Under the pieces are notes generated by a model. It saw only the letters and a list, made by a program, of their open reading frames with translations. It did no database searches and had not been told where the DNA came from. A stretch of DNA of 64,000 bases from Caldithrix abyssi. Its GTDB lineage: Bacteria > Calditrichota > Calditrichia > Calditrichales > Calditrichaceae. The first letter of the stretch is position 1, and each line of letters opens with the position of its first letter. The position numbers and the translations under genes were made by a program. Location of the stretch: assembly GCA_011369465.1 (NCBI GenBank), contig DRQG01000004.1:1-64000 (forward strand), read 5' to 3'. Below are positions 31,041-41,792 of the stretch, in pieces.

Positions 31041-33023
31041 TTACTCTTTAAATGTATTATATTTTTCTTCGATCACCGGCGCCAGTTGTTCCGGCGTAAA
31101 ACCGTAGGCTTTTTCCAGGGCCTGATAAGGGGCGGAGTCGCCGTAATGATTCAGACCGAATACCCAGCCGTCCAAACCGGTGTAGCGTTCCCAACCGAAG
31201 GTAACGCCGGCTTCAATGGCAACACGGAAGCGAACTTCATCCGGTAGCAGCAATTTTTTATACGATTCGTCCTGTTCATCAAAAAGTTCTGTGCAGGGCA
31301 TACTTATGACCCGTATTTTTAAATGGGATAATTTTTTGGCGATATCCAAAGCTAAATGGACTTCCGATCCGCTGGCTATCAAAATCATATCTGCTGTTTC
31401 TTGCGGGTTACCATGTACAATATAGGCGCCTCGGCCTACATTTTCCGGCGAGGCCAGTCCGACATCCAACAGGGGCAGTTTTTGCCGGGTGAGCGCAAGG
31501 GCAGAGGGGCGTTCCGTTTGCTTCATGATTACTTGCATGGCTGCTGCTGTTTCGTTGGCGTCTGCGGGCCGGAAAACCAGTAAATCAGGAATGGCCCGCA
31601 ATGCGGCCAGATGTTCCACCGGCTGGTGGGTCGGTCCGTCTTCACCCACGTAGAATGAGTCGTGCGTAAACACATGCAGCACCGGCAGTTTTTGCATGGC
31701 CGAGAGCCGTATGGCCGGACGTTCGTAATCGGAAAAAACAAGAAACGTAGCGCCGAAAGGACGTAACCCGCCGTGCAGGGCCATACCGTTTAGTATAGCG
31801 CCCATAGGAAACTCACGTACGCCAAAAGATATATTCCGGCCTGTCGGACTGTCCGCTGTGAACTCGCCGGTTTTTTCCATAAAAGCACGGGTTTGATTGG
31901 ACGGTTCCAAATCAGCCGAACCGCCGATGAGCTGGGGCAGTTGATCGGCAAAGGCGGCCAGGGTTTTTCCGAAGGCGGCCCGTGTGGCAACAGGGGCATC
32001 GAACGAAGGGATTGAAAGTTGTTGGCCGGTTACTTCGTTAAAAATATTCTGCCATAAATTGGCAAACTCGGGATTGTTTTTTTTATTCTGCAGAGTATGT
32101 TGCCACTCTTCTTCCGTCTTGCGCAGGTCGGCAAATCGCGAACGAAAATGCTGCAATACGTCTTCGGGCAGATAAAACTTCTGGTCGGCTGGCAGTCCCA
32201 TTTTTTCTTTTGTTGCGGCAATTTCCTCTTCCGGCAGGGGCGCGCCGTGGGTTTCGTGGTCGCCTTCCCGCGTCGCAGCACCTTTGGCCATAACGGTATC
32301 GCCAATGATGAGCGTCGGTCGGTCGGTTACCTTCCGCGCTTCTTCCAAAGCCTGAAGGATAGTCTGACGATTGTGCCCGTCAATTTCCACCACACGCCAT
32401 TGGAAGCCTTCAAAAACTTTACGCATGTCCGTACTGTCTGCCCGGGAAGTAGGGCCGGAAATCTGTATGCGGTTGCGGTCGTAAAAAACAATCAGTTTGT
32501 TCAGTTTTAAATGCCCGGCCAGAGAAGCGGATCCAAGGGCAACCGGTTCCTGCAGGTCGCCGTCCCCGGCCAGTACGTAGGTATAATGACTTACAATATC
32601 CTCACCCAATCGGGCGCGCAGAGATACTTCGGCTGCGGCCATGCCCACGGCCATACTGAAGCCCTGTCCCAACGGGCCGGTGGTGGCTTCCACGCCCGGA
32701 GTTAAGTGAGATTCCGGATGGCCGGGCGTACGGCTTTTAAATTGACGAAAATTCTTCAGATCTTCTATATCAAGATAGCCAACCAGTGTTAGCAATGAGT
32801 ACAATAGCATGGACTCATGGCCGGCGGAAAGCACAAAACGGTCGCGGTTAAACCATTGGGGATTATCGGGACTGTAGCGCAGAAAATATTTGAATAAAAC
32901 ATAAGCAAAGTCCGTAGAAGACATGGCACCGCCGGGATGACCGGAATTGGCTTTACGGGTGCCGTCCATGATGAGTGCGCGGATAACACTTACCGATTTT
33001 TGATCCAGGTCGGTTACGGGCAT
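31041..33023 (-). CDS. tkt: Transketolase
   Basis: This thiamine-diphosphate enzyme moves two-carbon units between sugar phosphates. The 660 residues are of normal length. Motifs in order: SGHPGGAMSSTDFAYVLF near the N terminus, GPLGQGFSMAVGMA, the cofactor-binding GDGDLQEPVALGSASLAG followed by YDRN, then GVREFPMGAILNGMALHGGLRPFGATF with the activating Glu, and THDSFYVGEDGPTHQPVEHLAALR. The ATG at 33023 has AGGAGTAACCT before it. rpiB follows on the same strand after a family A repeat. Confidence 0.96.
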   Translation of the reverse strand: MPVTDLDQKSVSVIRALIMDGTRKANSGHPGGAMSSTDFAYVLFKYFLRYSPDNPQWFNRDRFVLSAGHESMLLYSLLTLVGYLDIEDLKNFRQFKSRTPGHPESHLTPGVEATTGPLGQGFSMAVGMAAAEVSLRARLGEDIVSHYTYVLAGDGDLQEPVALGSASLAGHLKLNKLIVFYDRNRIQISGPTSRADSTDMRKVFEGFQWRVVEIDGHNRQTILQALEEARKVTDRPTLIIGDTVMAKGAATREGDHETHGAPLPEEEIAATKEKMGLPADQKFYLPEDVLQHFRSRFADLRKTEEEWQHTLQNKKNNPEFANLWQNIFNEVTGQQLSIPSFDAPVATRAAFGKTLAAFADQLPQLIGGSADLEPSNQTRAFMEKTGEFTADSPTGRNISFGVREFPMGAILNGMALHGGLRPFGATFLVFSDYERPAIRLSAMQKLPVLHVFTHDSFYVGEDGPTHQPVEHLAALRAIPDLLVFRPADANETAAAMQVIMKQTERPSALALTRQKLPLLDVGLASPENVGRGAYIVHGNPQETADMILIASGSEVHLALDIAKKLSHLKIRVISMPCTELFDEQDESYKKLLLPDEVRFRVAIEAGVTFGWERYTGLDGWVFGLNHYGDSAPYQALEKAYGFTPEQLAPVIEEKYNTFKE

Positions 33024-33173
33024 AGGTTACTCCTGTGTAAGGTTTCAAATTATATAAAAAAAGAATCTATCATTTTACATTTATCGAATCAACTCTGACC
33101 GGGAAAAATCCGGATATTAAATGATATTTTGGACTTTTTTTTAAAGTGTTAAAAATATACATATAAAAAAATC

Positions 33174-33202
33174 TTGAAAAAGGAAGATGAATATTATATT
33201 TT
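33174..33202 (+). promoter_or_regulatory. Candidate promoter upstream of the CBS-domain gene
   Basis: TTGAAA (33174-33179) and TATTTT (33197-33202) are separated by 17 bases, a fair housekeeping-type promoter. The implied 5' leader is about 145 bases. The whole gap 33024-33353 between the divergent tkt and CBS genes is AT-rich and holds no gene, so promoters in both directions are expected. Confidence 0.3.
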
Positions 33203-33353
33203 ACATTCAGCCTGAGCAGCAAAGCCCAATGATGATCAATCCTGAAGTTTAATCCGAATAATAAATATCCATAGAACTGTAAGTTTTTAAATTTTCTGTT
33301 TGCAGAAAGGTGTGTAAATAATCAACAAAAATTTAATAAATCGGAGGACTATT

Positions 33354-33794
33354 ATGGAAGAGCTTCCAAAAGTAAATGAATTCATGGACAAAACTTTTAT
33401 TACATTGCGTCCGGATATGGATGTTTATAAAGCGATTGACATCTTATTGGATAAAGGCGTAACCAGTGCTGTCGTAACCGATGATAATAATAAAATTGTA
33501 GGGATTCTGTCGGAAAAGGATGTATTAATATTGCTTACCAAAGATCATTACCATCAATTGCCCAGCGGCCGGGTATCCGATTTTATGACTAAAGAGGTTG
33601 TTACTATTCCGGCCAATACCGATATTTTTACTGTGGCCCACATGTGTTTTAGCCACTTTTTTCGGCGCTTAGTGGTGGCGGATGAGGAAGGGCGCATGGT
33701 GGGGCAAATTACCCGACGCGATTTATTGCGCGTTATCAAGCAATTTAAAAAAGAGGAAAAGCGAGCCCCGAAAAAGGTAGCCCCCATTCTTTAA
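33354..33794 (+). CDS. Two-CBS-domain protein
   Basis: The 146 residues consist of a pair of CBS motifs and little else. The first has KTFITLRPDMDVYKAIDILLDKGVTSAVVTDDNNKIVGILSEKDVL; the second has FMTKEVVTIPANTDIFTVAHMCFSHFFRRLVVADEEGRMVGQITRRDLLR. Such proteins form a disc that binds adenine nucleotides, so it is probably a cytoplasmic sensor of energy state or an IMP dehydrogenase-like regulator without the enzyme. CGGAGGACTATT precedes the ATG. A lipoprotein gene follows 29 bases after the stop, but no target enzyme is adjacent. The C-terminal tail is lysine-rich. Confidence 0.87.
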   Translation: MEELPKVNEFMDKTFITLRPDMDVYKAIDILLDKGVTSAVVTDDNNKIVGILSEKDVLILLTKDHYHQLPSGRVSDFMTKEVVTIPANTDIFTVAHMCFSHFFRRLVVADEEGRMVGQITRRDLLRVIKQFKKEEKRAPKKVAPIL

Positions 33795-33823
33795 CTAAAC
33801 TCAAGAATCAGGCATAGAATGTG

Positions 33824-34495
33824 ATGCTTTATTTATTTGCAGCCTTTCTTCTGTTCATTTTCTCTTCGTGCCAGAAAGATGATTTAACGGTTGATTCCCC
33901 TCCTTCCGATGGAGAGGATAGCACTCAGTACATTTACTCCGGTGACGGTTCCACTATCATTCCGGCAGCAAAAGGAAATTACTGGGTTTATGTGGATTCC
34001 GCCTTTGATGATTCCACCGTAAGCGTACAATTTGATACGCTCCTGATTACCGGCTGTGATACCCTGAATAATACAAAAGTATGGCTGCCAACGTACGATA
34101 GTTATGTGAGTTTTTACCTGCAGCCCAATTTTTATTTGCGTAACGACAGCGTTTTTATAATGGGCGCGACCAACCTTCCCAATTCGTATATGGAACAGCT
34201 GCGTTTTATCCCGCCGCCCCCGGATACAGTGTGGTACAATGTCTGGTTTGGCGATGTGGGTACAAATGCCTGGTGCATTAAAAAGGATGAAATATTCGCC
34301 ACGCCGGCCAGTAATTTTAACGGTTATGGATACTATTCTATTCGGGCTGACTTGCGGAAATGGGATATCGTAATCATTGTTCCGGAAGTCGGGATAGTCG
34401 GCTTTTTTTCTGTGCAGGAAGACTCGAATGGGCAGGAAGTTTATCTTAGAAAAATCAGGTTGGTTTCTTACCACATAGAAAGGCGGACGAACTAA
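33824..34495 (+). CDS. Predicted lipoprotein, unknown function
   Basis: A 223-residue product starts with a short signal peptide ending in the lipobox FSSC (Cys about residue 16), then an acidic linker (QKDDLTVDSPPSDGED). The rest has aromatic, Tyr- and Asp-rich segments, including PAAKGNYWVYVDSAF and PNFYLRNDSVFIMGATN, and looks like a beta-rich extracytoplasmic domain. I do not recognise a family. Two ATG codons are adjacent; the second (33824) leaves a compact signal peptide. The stop overlaps the stop of the convergent arcA gene by a few bases. Confidence 0.7.
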   Translation: MLYLFAAFLLFIFSSCQKDDLTVDSPPSDGEDSTQYIYSGDGSTIIPAAKGNYWVYVDSAFDDSTVSVQFDTLLITGCDTLNNTKVWLPTYDSYVSFYLQPNFYLRNDSVFIMGATNLPNSYMEQLRFIPPPPDTVWYNVWFGDVGTNAWCIKKDEIFATPASNFNGYGYYSIRADLRKWDIVIIVPEVGIVGFFSVQEDSNGQEVYLRKIRLVSYHIERRTN

Positions 34496-35730
34496 ACTTC
34501 CCGCAATATGGGCATGGTCATACAGCGGCAGCCGCCGCCGCCGCGGGTTAACTCGTTACCGGATATGGCCACGGCGTATTTATTCATCGCATTTAAATCC
34601 ACTTTGCCGTCAATAACATCTTTGGCTTCCACTCTCGGCAGGCCCGCTTTGGCCAATTCTTCGAAGGTGTAAACATTCATTCCGTAGCCAATGATCTTGC
34701 CCGGTCCTATGGTAAAAAAATTGGCGCCGGATTGCCACTGTTCGCGTTTTTGATGTAGCTCCTTGGTTCCGCCGCAAAAAACAGGTTCCAGATTAATATC
34801 TACGGTTTTTAAGGCCTTTAACAGGTAAGGGAAGCGTTTAAACCGAACTAAATTTGGATCGGATAAGTTGATATGGATAATATCCACACTGTCTTTTCCC
34901 AGAATGAGCGGTGGATACACAACGGCTTTATCGTGATCGATCATAGTAAAAATCATGTCCAGATGAATGGTGGCGCGGATTTTGGGCAGCATCACAACAA
35001 AAACATGCTTGATCTTACGGCCTTTTTTGAACTGTTCGATCATATAATCGATACCGGGTGCGCTGGTGCGTTCACTCATTCCGATCAACACCGTGTCTTC
35101 GCGCAATATGAGTATGTCTCCGCCTTCAAAAGTAGCATGAGGCAGATTCTCTTTGGTGGCATCAACCAAAAAATCTTCGCAGCATAAATCGCTGTGTGCG
35201 CGGAAGATATGGCTCATAATAATTGCTTCGGCAATACGAATACTGTTGGCCATATTGCCGATAAATACCTGATTATTGATCACCATACTGGAATCGCGTG
35301 TGAAAAACAGATTGGGCAGAGGGGGCAGGGCATACTGCCGCGGCGAGAGATACTTTTCCAGGGTATTGCGTTCCAACCGCGTACCCGTGATCAGACGTTC
35401 GGCCAGTTCTGCAGCACCAAGTTCCAATAGTGAGCCGGCAGTAGTGGCGGCGTCTAATTGAATGCACAGATCATTCACCAGAGATTTACGATGGAATTCA
35501 TTTTCGAGCACGTCTTTCAGCAGGTCTTTTACTTCCAGCGGTTGGGCTACCGTGGCCAGTACACCGCTCATTTGATGATGTTGTTCTTGTGCCGCTTCTA
35601 AATTCAAAATATCGTCGTATAATAACTCTTCGGCGGTATCCGGGGTCATCAATTCCAATTCGGAACCGGGTGTATGAATGATTACTTTTTTTAAAGTGTT
35701 AATCTCGGACGAAACTCTGATGTTGGTCAA
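34492..35730 (-). CDS. arcA: Arginine deiminase
   Basis: This enzyme hydrolyses arginine to citrulline and ammonia. The 412 residues show the guanidino-modifying fold: PDTAEELLYDDIL, the FTRDSSMVINNQVF motif, FEGGDILIL with substrate-binding acids, and the C-terminal RGGGGCRCMTMPI, where Cys403 aligns with the nucleophile of the family. The start is TTG at 35730, preceded by GGGGAG at nine bases. The remaining arginine deiminase pathway genes (ornithine carbamoyltransferase, carbamate kinase, antiporter) are not next to it. The enzyme may therefore serve nitrogen release, pH defence or citrulline supply rather than fermentation; that is an inference. Confidence 0.93.
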   Translation of the reverse strand: MTNIRVSSEINTLKKVIIHTPGSELELMTPDTAEELLYDDILNLEAAQEQHHQMSGVLATVAQPLEVKDLLKDVLENEFHRKSLVNDLCIQLDAATTAGSLLELGAAELAERLITGTRLERNTLEKYLSPRQYALPPLPNLFFTRDSSMVINNQVFIGNMANSIRIAEAIIMSHIFRAHSDLCCEDFLVDATKENLPHATFEGGDILILREDTVLIGMSERTSAPGIDYMIEQFKKGRKIKHVFVVMLPKIRATIHLDMIFTMIDHDKAVVYPPLILGKDSVDIIHINLSDPNLVRFKRFPYLLKALKTVDINLEPVFCGGTKELHQKREQWQSGANFFTIGPGKIIGYGMNVYTFEELAKAGLPRVEAKDVIDGKVDLNAMNKYAVAISGNELTRGGGGCRCMTMPILREV

Positions 35731-35811
35731 GTACAGATACTCCCCAAATTTTTCTATTCCCGGTGTAATTGATAGCGGCGTGACATGGTCATCTGTCGGT
35801 TAGTTACCAAA

Positions 35812-35827
35812 GTTCAACCGCTTGAAC
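35812..35827. promoter_or_regulatory. Palindrome upstream of arcA, possible operator
   Basis: GTTCAA-CCGC-TTGAAC is a perfect 6-bp palindrome with a 4-base centre, about 80 bases upstream of the arcA TTG. Its position suits an operator, but the same bases could form a small RNA hairpin. Apart from this, the 250-base gap 35731-35980 contains only the terminator-like hairpin at 35908-35934. Confidence 0.25.
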
Positions 35828-35907
35828 GGCTAAAAACTGTTTCTTTAGGCCAACTATGCAACAAACCTACAATTTAATACGAACAACTTAATTAGAAACA
35901 AATTACA

Positions 35908-35934
35908 AAAGAGAAAAATAAAGGGCAAATGCCC
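35908..35934 (-). terminator. Intrinsic terminator after the 58-residue protein gene
   Basis: In the minus direction GGGCATTTGCCC (35934-35923) is followed directly by TTTATTTTTCTCTTTT. The stem is short, four to five base pairs, but the T-rich tail and the location 46 bases after the stop codon of the small gene fit an intrinsic terminator. Confidence 0.45.
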
Positions 35935-35980
35935 GTAAAAGCAGATCAGGGGTTTTGGGAAATAAGAGTATTAGCAGAGT

Positions 35981-36157
35981 TTAATTCGAATTGGCGATAC
36001 CTTCTGGAAATCGTATTTCCATGGTCAGGCGGTATGGTGAGAAATGAAAACGTACGTTTTCTTCAGTATGGCTAATAATTTCTCCGTCTTTTAGCTCTAC
36101 GTCACGAAGCTGCTGGCGGATTTTCTGGATAAGATTTTCGATATCTTTTTCTATCAT
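35981..36157 (-). CDS. Small conserved-looking hypothetical protein (58 residues)
   Basis: The ATG at 36157 follows GGGAGGCCTTTGT, a strong ribosome binding site, so the gene is likely real although short; the frame extends to 36190 without such a site. The product begins MIEKDIENLIQKIRQQLRD, an amphipathic helix with a heptad-like pattern, then an acidic loop and a beta-like end (VRFHFSPYRLTMEIRFPEG). I do not recognise a family. It could be a small dimeric regulator or accessory subunit. An intrinsic terminator follows it. Confidence 0.6.
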   Translation of the reverse strand: MIEKDIENLIQKIRQQLRDVELKDGEIISHTEENVRFHFSPYRLTMEIRFPEGIANSN

Positions 36158-36311
36158 ACAAAGGCCTCCCTGTTGTTTAAGTTTTAACATTTGTTTTTAA
36201 TATACAACTGATTTGTTAGAGTTGGATTAGGACGGTGCAACGGTTTATTAATTAAACCATTTTTTATTACGAGAAAAAAGAAATAAAGTTCCCCTATAAG
36301 GCAGAATATCA

Positions 36312-36429
36312 AATCTTTTGCATTTCATTTGGACGAAAGTTAAATTTCCGTTGTTTTTGGAGGGGTGCCGGAGTGGTTGAACGGGGCAGTCTCGAAAATT
36401 GTTGTTCCGGTTCTCGGAACCGTGGGTTC
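36312..36429 (+). repeat. 118-bp direct repeat, copy 1 (tRNA-Ser leader plus 5' 71 nt of the tRNA)
   Basis: Bases 36312-36429 match 36796-36913 at 116 of 118 positions by hand count; the two differences are in the leader (CCGTTG versus CCATCG). The repeat contains 47 bases of upstream leader and the first 71 bases of tRNA-Ser. It flanks the GIY-YIG gene on the left. The near identity indicates a recent duplication or ongoing gene conversion. Confidence 0.92.
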
Positions 36430-36471
36430 TTCGCCTCCGGCGAACTCGCCCGTGGCGAGGAATCCCACCCC
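36359..36471 (+). pseudogene. Disrupted tRNA-Ser(CGA) copy with a 30-nt T-loop insert
   Basis: The first 71 bases are identical to the intact tRNA-Ser at 36843. After GTGGGTTC, within the T-loop, 30 extra bases (36430-36459) intervene. The sequence then resumes with GAATCCCACCCC (36460-36471), the rest of the T arm and the start of the 3' acceptor strand. The last acceptor bases are lost (CAGAG where the intact copy has CCTCCG). The T stem can still pair around the insert, but the acceptor stem cannot close fully, so a functional tRNA is unlikely. Confidence 0.85.
36430..36459. repeat. Two back-to-back 15-nt hairpins inserted in the tRNA T-loop
   Basis: The insert is exactly 30 bases. The first half is TTCGCC-TCC-GGCGAA and the second is CTCGCC-CGT-GGCGAG. 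Each is a perfect 6-bp stem with a 3-base loop, and the two stems share the core TCGCC/GGCGA. They lie precisely between TTC and GAA of the T-loop. I know of no tRNA intron or standard repeat that has this form, so I describe it only as a paired-hairpin insert. Confidence 0.9.
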
Positions 36472-36497
36472 AGAGTTTTATTTCTTACAAATTTACC

Positions 36498-36788
36498 ATG
36501 CACATACCAGAAGCTAATGCTTACATGTATGTACTCATTTCGTTAAAAGACGGTAGCACCTACGTAGGTTCGACTCATAATCTTACCAGGCGACTAAAAG
36601 AGCACAATGCCGGTAAAATGAGATACACAAAAGGGCATCTGCCGTATAAGCTTGTTTATTTTGAAACGTATGATACCTATTCCGAGGCTTTTCGGCGAGA
36701 GAAATATTTAAAAAGCGGTGCAGGACGGGAATGGCTGAAAGAAAATGTTTTAAAAGAAATAGATAAGTCCGGTTTGTCATCCGGATGA
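36498..36788 (+). CDS. GIY-YIG endonuclease-domain protein
   Basis: The 96-residue product is a single GIY-YIG nuclease domain. The two-part signature is MYVL (residues 10-13) and TYVG (21-24), followed by NLTRRLKEHN with the catalytic Arg, and EAFRREKYLKS with the metal-binding Glu. It belongs to the short UPF0213/UvrC-N-like group. Its start is uncertain: ATG 36498 has no clear Shine-Dalgarno, and the frame is open back to 36399, inside the disrupted tRNA, so a fusion with translated tRNA sequence is formally possible. It sits between a broken and an intact tRNA-Ser in a 118-bp direct repeat. This suggests a homing-type or otherwise mobile nuclease whose target is the tRNA gene. No DNA-binding domain is attached. 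Confidence 0.88.
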   Translation: MHIPEANAYMYVLISLKDGSTYVGSTHNLTRRLKEHNAGKMRYTKGHLPYKLVYFETYDTYSEAFRREKYLKSGAGREWLKENVLKEIDKSGLSSG

Positions 36789-36795
36789 AGGAATT

Positions 36796-36913
36796 AATCT
36801 TTTGCATTTCATTTGGACGAAAGTTAAATTTCCATCGTTTTTGGAGGGGTGCCGGAGTGGTTGAACGGGGCAGTCTCGAAAATTGTTGTTCCGGTTCTCG
36901 GAACCGTGGGTTC
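36796..36913 (+). repeat. 118-bp direct repeat, copy 2
   Basis: This is the right-hand copy of 36312-36429. It starts 7 bases after the GIY-YIG stop codon and runs into the intact tRNA-Ser, so the tRNA keeps its own leader. The duplication therefore restored a working tRNA gene next to the inserted nuclease gene. Confidence 0.92.
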
Positions 36914-36930
36914 GAATCCCACCCCCTCCG
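36843..36930 (+). tRNA. tRNA-Ser (anticodon CGA), intact
   Basis: This is an 88-nt type II tRNA. The acceptor stem is GGAGGGG/CCCCTCC and the anticodon stem GCAGT/ATTGT (with G-U pairs) closes loop CTCGAAA. A long variable arm (TTCCGGTTCTCGGAA) is followed by the T arm GTGGG-TTCGAAT-CCCAC, and the discriminator base is G. The anticodon CGA reads UCG (serine). No CCA is encoded. A partial, disrupted copy lies 484 bases upstream. Confidence 0.93.
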
Positions 36931-36958
36931 CTGTTTATATCTTTGAAGAAGTGAAAAA

Positions 36959-37708
36959 CTATAAACTTTGTCCCGCCAGTTTAACGGCCATAAAGAGAAG
37001 CATCAGCGCCAAAACAAAGCGGACTATTTTATCGCCTTTTTTAACCGACAATCGTGCTGCTATCCAGCCGCCGGTACCGTTGCCCGCAGCCAGGGCGAAA
37101 CCCAAAATCCAATCGATCTGACCGGAAAGAATAAAAACGAATAAAGCCGGGATGGTGTATAAAAAAACAATAAACACCTTATGTACATTTACTTTTACTA
37201 AAGATCGGTCAATAAAATGGTACAATACCACCATTAATAAAAAGCCAATGCCCACCTGTATAAATCCCCCGTAAAAACCAAGCAAAAATAAAAACAAATA
37301 ACCTTGCCATTTGTTTTCTTTGTCTAAGTTTTTCTGGTTTCTGCCTCCTGGTTTGGGTACGAAAAGACTGGCGGCCACAAGAATAATGATAACTGTGAGA
37401 ATGCGTTGAAACCAGAGATCGCTGATGTTAATTGCCAACAACGCACCGCAAACGGCGCCGGGCAATGTGAATAAAGCCAAACGGAAACTAAGTTTAAACT
37501 GATTTTGTTTTTCCTGCTCAAATCCTGTAATCGCCAGAATATTTTGGACTAATATGGCCAAACGATTGGTTCCGTTAGCCGTGGCGCTATCGAGCCCCAG
37601 TAGAATAAGGGCGGGCAGCGTTAGTGAAGAGCCTCCTCCGGCCAAAACATTAATGAAGCCGGCCAGAGTACCCACAAAAAACAAAGTAACTAGCGCAATT
37701 AATTCCAT
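36959..37708 (-). CDS. TSUP family permease (TauE/SafE type)
   Basis: This integral membrane protein of 249 residues has about eight hydrophobic helices arranged as two similar halves. The N-terminal half has FFVGTLAGFINVLAGGGSSLTLPALILLGLDSATANGTNRLAI, the typical TSUP motif. The second half repeats it as LFLLGFYGGFIQVGIGFLLM and, later, GWIAARLSVKKGDKIVRFVLALMLL. Family members export or import sulfite, sulfoacetate or other small anions; the substrate here cannot be read from the sequence. It ends 28 bases from the tRNA-Ser on the opposite strand. No Shine-Dalgarno is evident before ATG 37708. Confidence 0.88.
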   Translation of the reverse strand: MELIALVTLFFVGTLAGFINVLAGGGSSLTLPALILLGLDSATANGTNRLAILVQNILAITGFEQEKQNQFKLSFRLALFTLPGAVCGALLAINISDLWFQRILTVIIILVAASLFVPKPGGRNQKNLDKENKWQGYLFLFLLGFYGGFIQVGIGFLLMVVLYHFIDRSLVKVNVHKVFIVFLYTIPALFVFILSGQIDWILGFALAAGNGTGGWIAARLSVKKGDKIVRFVLALMLLFMAVKLAGQSL

Positions 37709-38047
37709 AATTATTAAAATACAAATTTACGCATATAATTATCCACAAAAAGAAGAATATCCTGACTTTGTATTTTATTCAATCTCTTTTTAATAAATAA
37801 CTTGAAATATGCTTTTAATCTTTATATTCTTATGTAGATACAGAACTCTGCAAAGTAAGCTATTTGAGAATGTGATAATTGTCGATTAAATCACAAATGA
37901 GTTTTGACCGTACATGTAACTTCCGTACAGTTCAGGTTATTTAAAAAACCTTTTAATCATTTTAATAAATTATAAAATCCGATTAGTTCCTGTTGTTTCA
38001 ATCGTTTCCATAAATATAAACGAATGTGCAGGATTTGAGAAACCGGT
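37709..38047. other. Divergent intergenic region (339 bases)
   Basis: This AT-rich stretch lies between the TSUP permease (minus) and the histidine-kinase-like gene (plus), so promoters in both directions are expected. On the plus strand TTGAAA (37802-37807) and TATTCT (37825-37830) are 17 bases apart, a weak promoter candidate. CCGTACATGTAACTTCCGTAC near 37907-37927 contains a direct repeat of CCGTAC. No gene or RNA is recognised. Confidence 0.35.
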
Positions 38048-38713
38048 ATGTCTGCTATGAAGGCTTTCTCGGAAGAAAACACCGATCTTTTAAAAAAGTT
38101 AATTCATGATATGAAAACGCCGTTGTCCACCTTGCGGATGGCTGTAAGTAATGTGGAATTTATGTTGGCTGACCACATAACAGAAGCACGAAAACGACAG
38201 GAGTTTGAAGATATTCTGGTTGATGCTCAAAATTCAATCCGGGATATCACCCAAACCATCCAATTGTTTCATGAAATATTGATCCGGAATGAAGATAAGG
38301 GCAAATTATTACACCTTTCGGATGTCGTAAACGAGTTCCGGCAGAGGGTATCCGACGATAACGGGGTAATCCGCGTCAACGTCGGTTCGGATGCTTCACA
38401 TTCGATCTTCTGGAAAGGTTATCCGCTTGTCTCGGTACTGATCGGACTGATGCGAACACTGGCGTCATTTCAGGCACATTCACCTGTGTTGCAGGTTTGG
38501 CCGAAAAACAACGAAGAGGAAAACGGAATAGTCCGTTTTTGTTTTTCGGCAACAATGGATACACCGGATCCGAAAATTACTTCCTTTATCGAAGGAAAGA
38601 AAGAATTTTTAATCGCCAAATGGGCATTATTGTGCAACGCCATTCCGGTAAACCTAAATCAAACCGGTAAAACCATTAATATTTGCTTTGATGTCCCGAC
38701 AGGAAAGGAGTAA
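38048..38713 (+). CDS. Histidine-kinase-like protein with degenerate ATPase region
   Basis: The 221 residues open with a dimerisation/phosphoacceptor helix: DLLKKLIHDMKTPLSTLRMAV, His20 being the likely phosphorylated residue. After a second helix (ILVDAQNSIRDITQTIQLFHEIL) the C-terminal 110 residues occupy the place of the kinase ATPase domain. They lack the N box, the DxGxG motif and the GTGLGL lid; the N-box position reads VSVLIGLMRTLASF. The protein may be a phosphotransferase like ChpT or Spo0B, which keep the fold without binding ATP, or an inactive partner of another kinase. No sensor domain or membrane helix is present. The response regulator gene follows 11 bases later, so the two probably work together. 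Confidence 0.75.
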   Translation: MSAMKAFSEENTDLLKKLIHDMKTPLSTLRMAVSNVEFMLADHITEARKRQEFEDILVDAQNSIRDITQTIQLFHEILIRNEDKGKLLHLSDVVNEFRQRVSDDNGVIRVNVGSDASHSIFWKGYPLVSVLIGLMRTLASFQAHSPVLQVWPKNNEEENGIVRFCFSATMDTPDPKITSFIEGKKEFLIAKWALLCNAIPVNLNQTGKTINICFDVPTGKE

Positions 38714-38724
38714 TCGGAAAAAAT

Positions 38725-40101
38725 ATGAATGGACGGATTCTGCTAATCGATGATAATGAGGACTATTGCCGTCAGGTACAAAAAACGCTGGCACTCCGTG
38801 AGATGAATGTGGTTTATTTTACCAATGGTGCCGAAGGTCTGGAACATGCGTTGAATAACGATTGGGGCGTGATATTGCTGGATGTGTATCTGAACCAGCA
38901 AATTGACGGATTGGAAATTTTAAAAAGGATCGTTGAAAAAAAATCTCAAATACCGGTTATCATGATATCCGGCGCCTCTACACTGCAAATCGCTGTGGAA
39001 GCCACCAAAAAAGGCGCGTATGATTTTCTTGAAAAACCGCTCGATGTAGATCGCCTGGTGATTACCATAAATCGTGCTCTGGAAAAATATTCTCTTACTC
39101 AACTTAGCCAGAACCTGCTGGATGAGTTAGGCAAAGGGCTGCGCATGGTAGGCCGAAGTTCTTCTCTTAGCAGGATCCTTGATGATGTTGAACGTATTGC
39201 CCGGACCGATTCCAAAGTGCTTATTTGCGGAGAAAGCGGTGTAGGGAAAGATATTGTTGCCAGATTGATTCATTATAAAAGCCAACGGGAAAACAGACCG
39301 TTCGTATCGGTTAACTGTGCAGCCATTCCCGAAACACTTATCGAAACCGAACTATTCGGATATGTTGAAGGCGCTTTTACCGGCGCTAACCAGAATAATA
39401 GTGGATATATAGCTGAGGCCGAAAATGGAACCCTGTTTTTGGATGAAATCGGCGAACTTCCTACAAGCGCACAGGCAAAGCTGCTTATCTTCCTGAATGA
39501 TGGCACCTATACCCCGGTTGGAAGCACGGAAAGCAGACAATCTAATGTAAGAATTATCGCAGCAACCAATAAGAATCTGGAAAACGAAGTTAAACTGGGT
39601 AATTTCAGGGAAGACCTGTATTATCGCCTGAACGTTTTTAAAGTACATATTCCGGCTTTGCGCGAACGCCCGGAAGATATTGAACCGTTAGCGCTTTATT
39701 TTTTACAGCGGGCTTGCAATAAATTTGGCAAACGAATAACACATTTCAGCGAAGAAGCCATGGATATCATTCTAAAACAGCGTTGGCAGGGGAATGTAAG
39801 ACAGTTAAAATCCGCAGTATATCGCATGGTCTTGTTTTGTAACGATAGTATGATCAATTACGGAACGGCGGCCATGGCTATCCAAATGGATCGTACCAAC
39901 GAACTCGTATCTGTACCGGGACCATATCAAACCGCACTGGAGGAGTTCGAAAAACTGTATTTTCTAAATCAACTGAATTTATTTGGCTGGGATTTATCAA
40001 AGGTGGCTGAAGCTGTTAGATTACCCAAGAAAGATTTGGCGAAAAAGTTGGAACAGTTAGGACTTGTACACGATAAAGACAGAGAATTAATTGCTTACTA
40101 A
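38725..40101 (+). CDS. Sigma-54-dependent response regulator (NtrC family)
   Basis: This regulator of 458 residues has three parts. The receiver domain (1-120) has the acidic pair DDNEDY, phosphoacceptor Asp53 in LLDVYLN and FLEKP with Lys. The AAA+ domain (140-370) has Walker A GESGVGKD at 169-176, the sigma-54-contacting GAFTGA at 216-221 and Walker B FLDEIGEL at 238-245. The C-terminal Fis-type helix-turn-helix is LNLFGWDLSKVAEAVRLPKKDLAKKLEQL. It would drive promoters recognised by RpoN. The preceding gene encodes a likely phosphodonor. The stop codon overlaps that of the convergent next gene by 4 bases. Target genes cannot be inferred; no clear -24/-12 promoter was found nearby. Confidence 0.94.
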   Translation: MNGRILLIDDNEDYCRQVQKTLALREMNVVYFTNGAEGLEHALNNDWGVILLDVYLNQQIDGLEILKRIVEKKSQIPVIMISGASTLQIAVEATKKGAYDFLEKPLDVDRLVITINRALEKYSLTQLSQNLLDELGKGLRMVGRSSSLSRILDDVERIARTDSKVLICGESGVGKDIVARLIHYKSQRENRPFVSVNCAAIPETLIETELFGYVEGAFTGANQNNSGYIAEAENGTLFLDEIGELPTSAQAKLLIFLNDGTYTPVGSTESRQSNVRIIAATNKNLENEVKLGNFREDLYYRLNVFKVHIPALRERPEDIEPLALYFLQRACNKFGKRITHFSEEAMDIILKQRWQGNVRQLKSAVYRMVLFCNDSMINYGTAAMAIQMDRTNELVSVPGPYQTALEEFEKLYFLNQLNLFGWDLSKVAEAVRLPKKDLAKKLEQLGLVHDKDRELIAY

Positions 40102-41792
40102 CCACTATAACTGGTACGCATTTTTAATTCGGAAAATTCATCGGATCCTTCCGCTGAAAGTTGGACATCGTATTTATCCAGCAAAGAAACAAATCCTTCC
40201 TTAATCATTTCATATATCGATTTCAAACGGTCAATTTCCGCATACCCTTTTGATTCTTTAAGATATTTCAAATCTTCCAGATTTTTATTATGATGAAGGA
40301 ACTCATCCAAATACGTTTCCAGATCGTCGCGTTCTATATCTACAAAGGAAGCATATTTACGTATAAGCTCCGGCAATTTATCCTTGTACATTTTATTGCT
40401 TAAAATATGCTCGAGTTTTTCAGCAGATTGTATCAACCGCATCATTTCGTTTTTGACAGATTTATATTTCTTAAATCTTTCGATATGGATTTCACTAAAC
40501 TCAATATCTTCCACCAAAGGTGCGTTCTCAGCAATGGCTTTACGTTGTTCTTCCAATTCTTTAATATTCTTTTGCGTAATTTGATAATCTGCGTCTTCCT
40601 GGTAATACTGCGCTTTAAGAGTATATATTTTGTGCCCAAAATAAAAAATAATGATTAGAAAAGACAAAATGGTTTCGGGAATTATAAACAACCAATTAGG
40701 GCCTAAAACAAAATAAGAGAGCAGAAATACCAGAGGAGTAACCACTATTGTCACAACATTGCGTCTTCTTCTTAGCGTACTGGTTAAAATTTTATTTTCG
40801 TGTAGGCGGCTGCGTAAATTGTAAAAATTTTCTTTCTCCTGTTCGAGTTTTGTTGTTAACAACGCATATTCTTTAATATCCTGTTCAAAACTATCCGGTA
40901 ATTTTTTATAAATAAACAGCTCGTTCCGGATCAGATTTTGCAGGTAGCGTCGGCGGTCTCGGATGAGTTTAAGTTTTTGATCACAATCGATTTTGTTTTT
41001 TCTTAGTTTCTTCCACAATAACACTTCATCTTTAAAATCTTGGGCGTTGTCCATGGGCAATAAACCGACCCTTGGTTCTATTTTTCTTTTTATTTTATCA
41101 CCGATTTCTTCGAAAACACGTATCTCCGCATTCAGTTTTTCTATGGTTTGTTTTAAATGATTGCTTTGCTCACGCGCTCCACGCGTAATTAAAGCCGAAT
41201 GCTCCCGGTTGTTCGTATCCTCGTTTTCGAATAAAGATTCATAAATAGAATTTGCCGAGTGACTCAGGCGTTTATAATACGTTATCTTCAGTTTCTGGCC
41301 TAAAAGAAGCTCCAGTATTTCCACTAACGAAGAAAGGGTTAAAGCATCTTTTTCAAAAATAGAGGTACAAATATCATAAATCACCTGCTTATCGGTGATA
41401 TGAAAAATTGAGCGAATCATGTGGATATAGGCTCGGTTATCATCCTGATCTACAAAATCTTTTCCCTGAAAGACCGGTTTCGATTTTTTATCGCTCATCA
41501 AGATGGAGGCAACAATATCTGTTTCAAAATCTCTCTCGATGAGCAGAGTTCGGTTGTCCAAATCGATGGTAATTAAACCGGTAAAGACCTTGCTTTTACC
41601 TCCGTGATCACGAAAGCTGTCTTTCTCTTCGGAAGTGAATCCGAATAAAACACCTAAAATACTTTGGAAAATTTTGAGCTGTTTTTCGCTCTCACCGTAC
41701 AGTACAAAATCATTATATGTTTGATCCAACTGAAAAACCGTTTCATCGGCGAAGGAATTAAAACCACAAAGTTTTAAAGATAATATTTTCAT
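40098..41792 (-). CDS. YhaN/SMC-like coiled-coil membrane protein with degenerate P-loop
   Basis: The 564 residues start like the YhaN family of ATPases (KILSLKLCGFNSFADE, then LLFGF-like VLFGF at 48-52). Between these, where GPNEAGKST is expected, the sequence reads GESEKQLK (33-40), so the Walker A Lys and Ser/Thr are not in place. A long helical, charged region (190-345) is predicted coiled coil. Two membrane helices follow (about 346-363 and 367-386) as a hairpin, then a second coiled-coil segment to the end. No ABC signature or Walker B is visible in the C-terminal part. This suggests an inactive ATPase-like scaffold anchored in the inner membrane. It converges on the sigma-54 regulator with overlapping stop codons. 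The function is unknown. Confidence 0.7.
   Translation of the reverse strand: MKILSLKLCGFNSFADETVFQLDQTYNDFVLYGESEKQLKIFQSILGVLFGFTSEEKDSFRDHGGKSKVFTGLITIDLDNRTLLIERDFETDIVASILMSDKKSKPVFQGKDFVDQDDNRAYIHMIRSIFHITDKQVIYDICTSIFEKDALTLSSLVEILELLLGQKLKITYYKRLSHSANSIYESLFENEDTNNREHSALITRGAREQSNHLKQTIEKLNAEIRVFEEIGDKIKRKIEPRVGLLPMDNAQDFKDEVLLWKKLRKNKIDCDQKLKLIRDRRRYLQNLIRNELFIYKKLPDSFEQDIKEYALLTTKLEQEKENFYNLRSRLHENKILTSTLRRRRNVVTIVVTPLVFLLSYFVLGPNWLFIIPETILSFLIIIFYFGHKIYTLKAQYYQEDADYQITQKNIKELEEQRKAIAENAPLVEDIEFSEIHIERFKKYKSVKNEMMRLIQSAEKLEHILSNKMYKDKLPELIRKYASFVDIERDDLETYLDEFLHHNKNLEDLKYLKESKGYAEIDRLKSIYEMIKEGFVSLLDKYDVQLSAEGSDEFSELKMRTSYSG

Follow-up and report, generated by a model that had tools for sequence, protein, structure and literature searches.

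A gene encoding a bare GIY-YIG nuclease domain lies between a degenerate and an intact copy of tRNA-Ser(CGA) on contig DRQG01000004.1 of Caldithrix abyssi (assembly GCA_011369465.1), within the 64,000-nucleotide stretch that was analysed as a whole and is called the window here. With a probability of roughly 0.6, we consider this locus to belong to a widespread family of chromosomal, homing-type GIY-YIG genes that encode only the bare domain, are specialised on tRNA genes and are, lineage by lineage, largely tied to one tRNA. tRNA genes are indispensable, and almost all bacteria have dozens of them. If the reading is true, a minimal nuclease whose spread depends on breaking tRNA genes and rebuilding them would explain the recurring architecture, would extend to bacterial chromosomes the story of SegB, which is a larger phage protein, and would offer a simple setting in which to ask how a tail-less nuclease finds its target DNA. 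The literature searched, which took in few subscription papers or preprints, held no description of a chromosomal tRNA-linked GIY-YIG family, and the bacterial architecture is apparently both recurring and undescribed.

Anatomy of the tRNA-Ser(CGA) locus

The locus spans positions 36312-36931 of the window, with all of its features on the forward strand. It opens with a 47-bp tRNA-Ser leader (36312-36358), which is followed by a degenerate tRNA-Ser(CGA) whose positions 1-71 (36359-36429) are 100% identical to the intact gene. A 30-bp double hairpin (36430-36459) is then inserted in the T-loop, between GTTC and GAATCC; both of its hairpins, TTCGCC-TCC-GGCGAA (36430-36444) and CTCGCC-CGT-GGCGAG (36445-36459), are perfect. 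tRNA positions 72-83 follow at 36460-36471, after which the sequence is unrelated, and positions 84-89, the final 6 nt at the end of the acceptor stem, are missing. The upstream copy is therefore disrupted, as the initial annotation had it, but not by a simple interruption, as it has both gained a double hairpin and lost the end of its acceptor stem. The GIY-YIG open reading frame comes next (36498-36788, with 96 codons to 36785 and the stop to 36788), and then the second leader (36796-36842) and the intact tRNA-Ser(CGA) at 36843-36931, the only intact copy at the locus, which is recognised by ARAGORN and by Rfam (RF00005, 53.9 bits). Leader and most of the tRNA form a direct repeat of 118 bp (36312-36429 and 36796-36913, 98% identity), which grows to about 130 bp once the 30-bp insert is taken out. 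Both the placement of the nuclease gene between two tRNA-Ser(CGA) copies, one disrupted and one intact, and the 118-bp repeat with its 47-base leader, as first annotated, were confirmed.

The encoded protein of 96 residues matches PF01541 (E 1.8e-15; 57.4 bits against a curated cut-off of 22.6), and this is its sole domain match; a DNA-binding region beyond the GIY-YIG domain, like that of SegB, was not found in it. Y11, Y22, G24, R32, H36 and E68 are invariant in an alignment of 14 sequences and all are present in the window protein. Two alternative starts exist, a TTG at 36399 that would read through the degenerate tRNA and an ATG at 36525. Throughout the family the proteins are bare GIY-YIG domains of about 80-100 residues, and profile matches to 1zg2 (5e-15) and 1ywl (1e-13) place the window protein with UPF0213/COG2827, the stand-alone GIY-YIG proteins of about 80-110 residues. 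These are its closest relatives of solved structure by sequence and share its size class, but the literature found does not describe them as linked to tRNA genes. The structure-specific endonuclease SLX1 has a related nuclease domain, whereas here there is neither a partner domain nor a RING domain and the genomic context is different.

Islands that carry tyrosine integrases likewise use tRNA genes as insertion sites and leave the tRNA functional, and the gene could be the relic of such an island with its attachment site in the tRNA: tRNA direct repeats flank it, and several loci show repeats of 18-21 bp from the tRNA 3' end. We regard this as extremely improbable, as no integrase-like frame was seen by eye among the window ORFs listed for 33000-41000, the window repeat comprises the leader and the 5' part of the tRNA and not just its 3' end, repeat extents vary and the unit is only a few hundred bp long. 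Rfam returned neither a group I intron nor any other non-tRNA RNA family at gathering score for 35900-37300, and an intron or RNA family was set aside as the source of the arrangement on this result. The original statement that neither an integrase nor an intron is present is borne out over these two intervals.

Association with tRNA genes across genomes

Two surveys were carried out. In the first, loci were fetched and scored from 60 genomes, the genome of the window and its relatives, giving 108 GIY genes; the second was a scan of named GTDB genomes that gave 80 loci with 92 GIY genes, mostly from Bacteroidota, Ignavibacteriota, Balneolota, Patescibacteria lineages and Calditrichota, and its query, a narrow alignment of Ser-linked genes, biases this set towards the Ser-linked clade. 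A tRNA gene lies within 300 bp on the same strand for 45 of the 108 genes and on the opposite strand for one; the corresponding figures of the GTDB scan are 51 of 92 and one. Against a chance expectation of about 1% for either strand, same-strand linkage is about 40-50 times chance. The search for short GIY-YIG genes within 300 bases of tRNAs in related genomes, which the initial annotation had proposed, thus found a strong and directional association. The arrangement is carried by the cultured isolates Pararhodonellum marinum SW124 (L184) and Algoriphagus locisalis DSM 23445 (L235), and a binning artefact is excluded for this reason. About half of all GIY genes were found without a tRNA link, many of them in a separate clade that is nearly unlinked. 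A nuclease gene lacking tRNA association had been named beforehand as a sign of chance duplication; it occurs in part, and weakens the reading as an element without overturning it.

Intact and degenerate copies of one tRNA flank the GIY gene at loci for Ser, Glu, Cys, Val, Asp, Thr, Pro, Leu, Gly, Ala, Asn, Arg and Tyr. Two mirrored forms are seen, in which the GIY gene either follows the intact tRNA and precedes the degenerate copy or, as in the window, stands between an upstream degenerate copy and a downstream intact tRNA. Tandem series of tRNA-GIY units also occur, usually with one intact tRNA. There are typically one or more degenerate copies per GIY gene, truncated at varied points; some GIY genes have none at all, and some begin 4-7 nt after an intact tRNA. 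Across three genomes, degenerate copies accompany 6 of 11 tRNAs with a GIY gene within 400 bp and 7 of 89 other tRNAs (p=5e-4), a count that includes neighbours within tRNA clusters and is approximate only. Recurrence at many independent loci rules out a chance tandem duplication confined to one genome.

The genome of the window itself has eight PF01541 genes, one of them within an open frame of 611 residues. Besides the window gene, one lies between an intact and a degenerate tRNA-Val, with three further degenerate copies upstream (L004), and another has a degenerate tRNA-Cys and stands ahead of tRNA-Leu (L008). A third, at a contig end, has nearby only a weak, 19-nt match to tRNA-Asn (L006), and the remaining three short GIY genes are without a tRNA and are placed in the separate clade.

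The interval between tRNA-Cys and tRNA-Leu shows both occupied and empty sites. It measures 12-17 bp and holds no GIY gene in five genomes (G015, G016, G019, G006, G007), and it is occupied in five others (G017, G018, G008, G009, G022). In G017 it reaches 594 nt and contains two GIY genes, and G017 belongs to the same genus as the empty G015; in a further genome, G005, degenerate Cys copies are present and the GIY gene is absent. For tRNA-Ser(CGA) in the window's family, compared by tRNA gene and not by full synteny, four genomes carry a GIY gene and five have neither a GIY gene nor degenerate copies. At those loci of relatives that were read, the genes flanking the window locus did not turn up, with the exception of one at a tRNA-Ser(GGA) locus. 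Occupied and empty alleles of one site, as expected of a free-standing homing endonuclease, are thus found at the Cys-Leu and Ser(CGA) loci, and the comparison proposed at the outset finds both states among relatives. Support is good for the association, for its generality and for the comparison of occupied with empty loci.

Phylogeny and selection

A tree of 177 GIY sequences, built on only 70 columns and with many forks that lack resolution or are weakly supported, requires 30 changes of the tRNA amino-acid label against 53.9 after shuffling (shuffle minimum 49), and 25 changes between tRNA-linked and unlinked against 59 after shuffling. Among Ser-linked genes, by contrast, the phylum label is nearly unstructured, with 5 changes against 7.3 after shuffling, on the same 70 columns and with weak support. 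On this sequence evidence, GIY lineages tend to be structured by tRNA identity more strongly than by host phylum. The window gene stands outside the main Ser clade and groups weakly with Arg-, Leu- and Asp-linked genes, a position that may reflect a change of tRNA. One clade of 40 rows holds a single tRNA-linked gene. This nearly unlinked clade (L001-L003 and about 37 other rows) consists of genes of similar size, of which L001 and L003, from the window's own genome, lie amid short dispersed repeats.

Synonymous and nonsynonymous rates in tandem copies (dN/dS values of 0.02/0.32, 0.11/0.58 and 0.19/0.95, and one pair at 0.13/0.17) point to purifying selection on the GIY proteins, dN being well below dS in most copies. 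Such selection would also be seen if the gene were a domesticated UPF0213-type nuclease, expressed with its tRNA and serving the host in tRNA dosage, quality control or defence, for example by raising the number of tRNA genes to counter toxins that cut tRNAs, which is what SegB does for phage T6. The sequence relatives, UPF0213 proteins and SLX1, fit this alternative, as does the finding that tRNA amplification by SegB overcomes Septu (PMC13096335). The extra tRNA copies are degenerate, however, and hence add no working tRNA, the gene is patchily present even inside a genus and a family, and many different tRNAs are used; a host function seems to us distinctly unlikely.

Degenerate arrays and double hairpins

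Degenerate tRNA arrays also exist without a GIY gene, for Glu, Cys and Ser in G005 and for Ser(GGA) and Asp in the genome of the window. The Glu array of G005 (G005:C1:4552824-4554934, L129) has at least 12 copies, and no convincing GIY remnant was found inside any of the GIY-less arrays. Such arrays suggest that these genomes may readily make tandem tRNA duplications, through slippage or driven by palindromes, and that the nuclease is a bystander merely carried in some of the repeats. Their presence at 7 of the 89 tRNAs checked, the length of the Glu array and the missing remnants all favour this explanation, whereas it would not account for a same-strand linkage so far above chance and almost never found on the opposite strand, for GIY lineages that track tRNA identity across phyla, for the five Ser(CGA) loci that have no GIY gene and show no duplication, or for GIY genes placed directly after intact tRNAs (4-7 nt). 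We consider it unlikely. Tandem tRNAs without the nuclease, the other finding that the initial annotation had set against its proposal, do therefore occur in part, and they weaken the reading as an element without overturning it. In G005, each tRNA-Glu copy read is followed by a copy of the terminator, and no nuclease gene lies near the long Glu and Cys arrays (L129, L120).

Degenerate tRNAs are rich in palindromic inserts: of the 86 non-redundant inserts measuring 12-50 nt, 68 are palindromic, against a shuffled expectation of 27. The T loop holds 28 of these 68, the anticodon loop 16 and the D loop 13, together 57, compared with 24 for an even distribution. They lie within the loops and leave the tRNA fold intact. 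Covariation in their stems is seen in 29 double-change cells, compared with 7.9 after shuffling, and the hairpins are for this reason taken to be conserved as hairpins. One could therefore suppose that the hairpin-bearing degenerate tRNA has a function as an RNA, as a partner or a guide of the GIY protein, which would agree with the covariation, with the placement in loops and with the fold that is kept. The same double hairpins are nevertheless found far from any GIY gene and outside tRNAs, the degenerate copies are truncated at many points and some GIY genes have none, and we hold such a partnership to be very unlikely.

The double hairpins look like a separate miniature mobile palindrome that tolerates or prefers hairpin loops, and for which degenerate tRNAs are treated as free targets. 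In G005, two tRNA arrays account for all 20 matches to one double-hairpin pattern. Similar double hairpins in other relatives are remote from tRNAs and from any GIY gene, and several of them occupy the loops of terminator-like hairpins. The idea that the insert is part of the nuclease element or the footprint of its cut is weakened by these occurrences outside tRNAs, although in G005 the pattern is confined to tRNA arrays. Because the inserts are also seen in D and anticodon loops and in the loops of ordinary, non-tRNA hairpins, they are not marks of a nuclease cut. The initial annotation had deduced a cut in the T-loop from the break in the upstream tRNA-Ser; that break is a double-hairpin insert, and with the hairpins read as a separate element the direct evidence for the cut is gone.

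Short tandem double-hairpin or repetitive hairpin elements that are mobile within genomes are described from sponge mitochondria (PMC2800124). The present elements resemble them in being short tandem hairpins; they differ from what is described there in being bacterial, in having triloops and in lying within the loops of pre-existing hairpins, and the likeness concerns the insert only and not the nuclease gene. Short double hairpins with loops of 3-4 nt, such as TCCC-GAA-GGGA CTCC-TTC-GGAG, occur in the loops of existing hairpins at L256, L262, L274, L283, L260, L272 and L280 (relatives G010, G028, G034, G004 and G026). In some relatives they are dispersed, with 33 double-hairpin matches in G004. 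The tRNA-Ser(GGA) locus of the window's own genome (C146, L147) and the tRNA-Ser(CGA) of the window have identical hairpin stems, with both triloops different.

Proposed mechanism and relation to SegB

Homing would be the most economical mechanism for the tRNA-linked GIY genes; DNA cleavage, the cut site, homing and mobility are what we infer. In this model the bare GIY-YIG enzyme would break DNA in or near an unoccupied tRNA gene, and the nuclease gene would be imported either when an occupied copy serves as the template for repair or when tRNA repeats recombine. The imported piece would carry enough tRNA sequence to yield one intact tRNA beside the nuclease gene, and the spare copy would then be free to decay and to gather hairpin inserts. 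The GIY gene is probably transcribed with its tRNA and, given the strand bias and the spacing, may use the tRNA promoter. In its fullest form, to which we give about even odds, the model describes a large class of chromosomal selfish genes in Calditrichota, Bacteroidota, Ignavibacteriota, Balneolota and several Patescibacteria lineages that home into tRNA genes by means of a single bare GIY-YIG domain, one kind of tRNA per lineage, and carry a replacement tRNA piece so that the essential target survives. Several observations count against homing, namely the GIY-less degenerate arrays, the many unlinked GIY genes, the lack of a SegB-like DNA-binding tail and the place of the window gene outside the main Ser clade. 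The resident intact tRNA, moreover, would stay a target unless recognition needs unoccupied flank, and it could escape if the recognition site reaches into that flank. No single cut site or T-loop breakpoint was seen for the duplications, the breakpoints of the degenerate copies being variable.

The closest parallel is SegB of phages T4 and T6, a free-standing GIY-YIG homing endonuclease that adjoins tRNA genes, cuts in tRNA genes and drives tandem amplification of tRNA and segB through homologous recombination (PMC13096335). Its cleavage motif is RAWTSGAAC (PMC13096335), and by our own reading the reverse complement of that motif, GTTCSAWTY, matches the T-loop consensus GTTCGAATC; cutting in the T-loop by a tRNA-linked GIY-YIG enzyme thereby has independent published support in SegB. 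The two systems are alike in the GIY-YIG domain, in a gene that lies beside tRNAs and is enriched near them and in tandem tRNA-nuclease repeats (PMC13096335); they differ in that the gene described here encodes a bare domain of 96 residues, resides in bacterial chromosomes, forms tRNA-specific lineages and is flanked by degenerate tRNA copies. The bacterial genes resemble a reduced version of SegB that resides on chromosomes. The family would work like SegB and is a candidate for the homing endonucleases, with cleavage only inferred and the extra DNA-binding region absent. Relatives of the window-type family were not found in IMG/VR at the sensitivity used, the phage matches to the family are only about 33% identical, and a phage origin was set aside on these distant matches.

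The GIY-tRNA arrangement is likely to cause contig breaks at tRNA loci, and invasion of tRNAs would explain why the 5' end of such GIY frames can run through tRNA sequence. In the window, the frame is open from 36399 to 36788 across the degenerate tRNA, and automatic annotation could there yield a longer protein with a tRNA-derived N-terminus.
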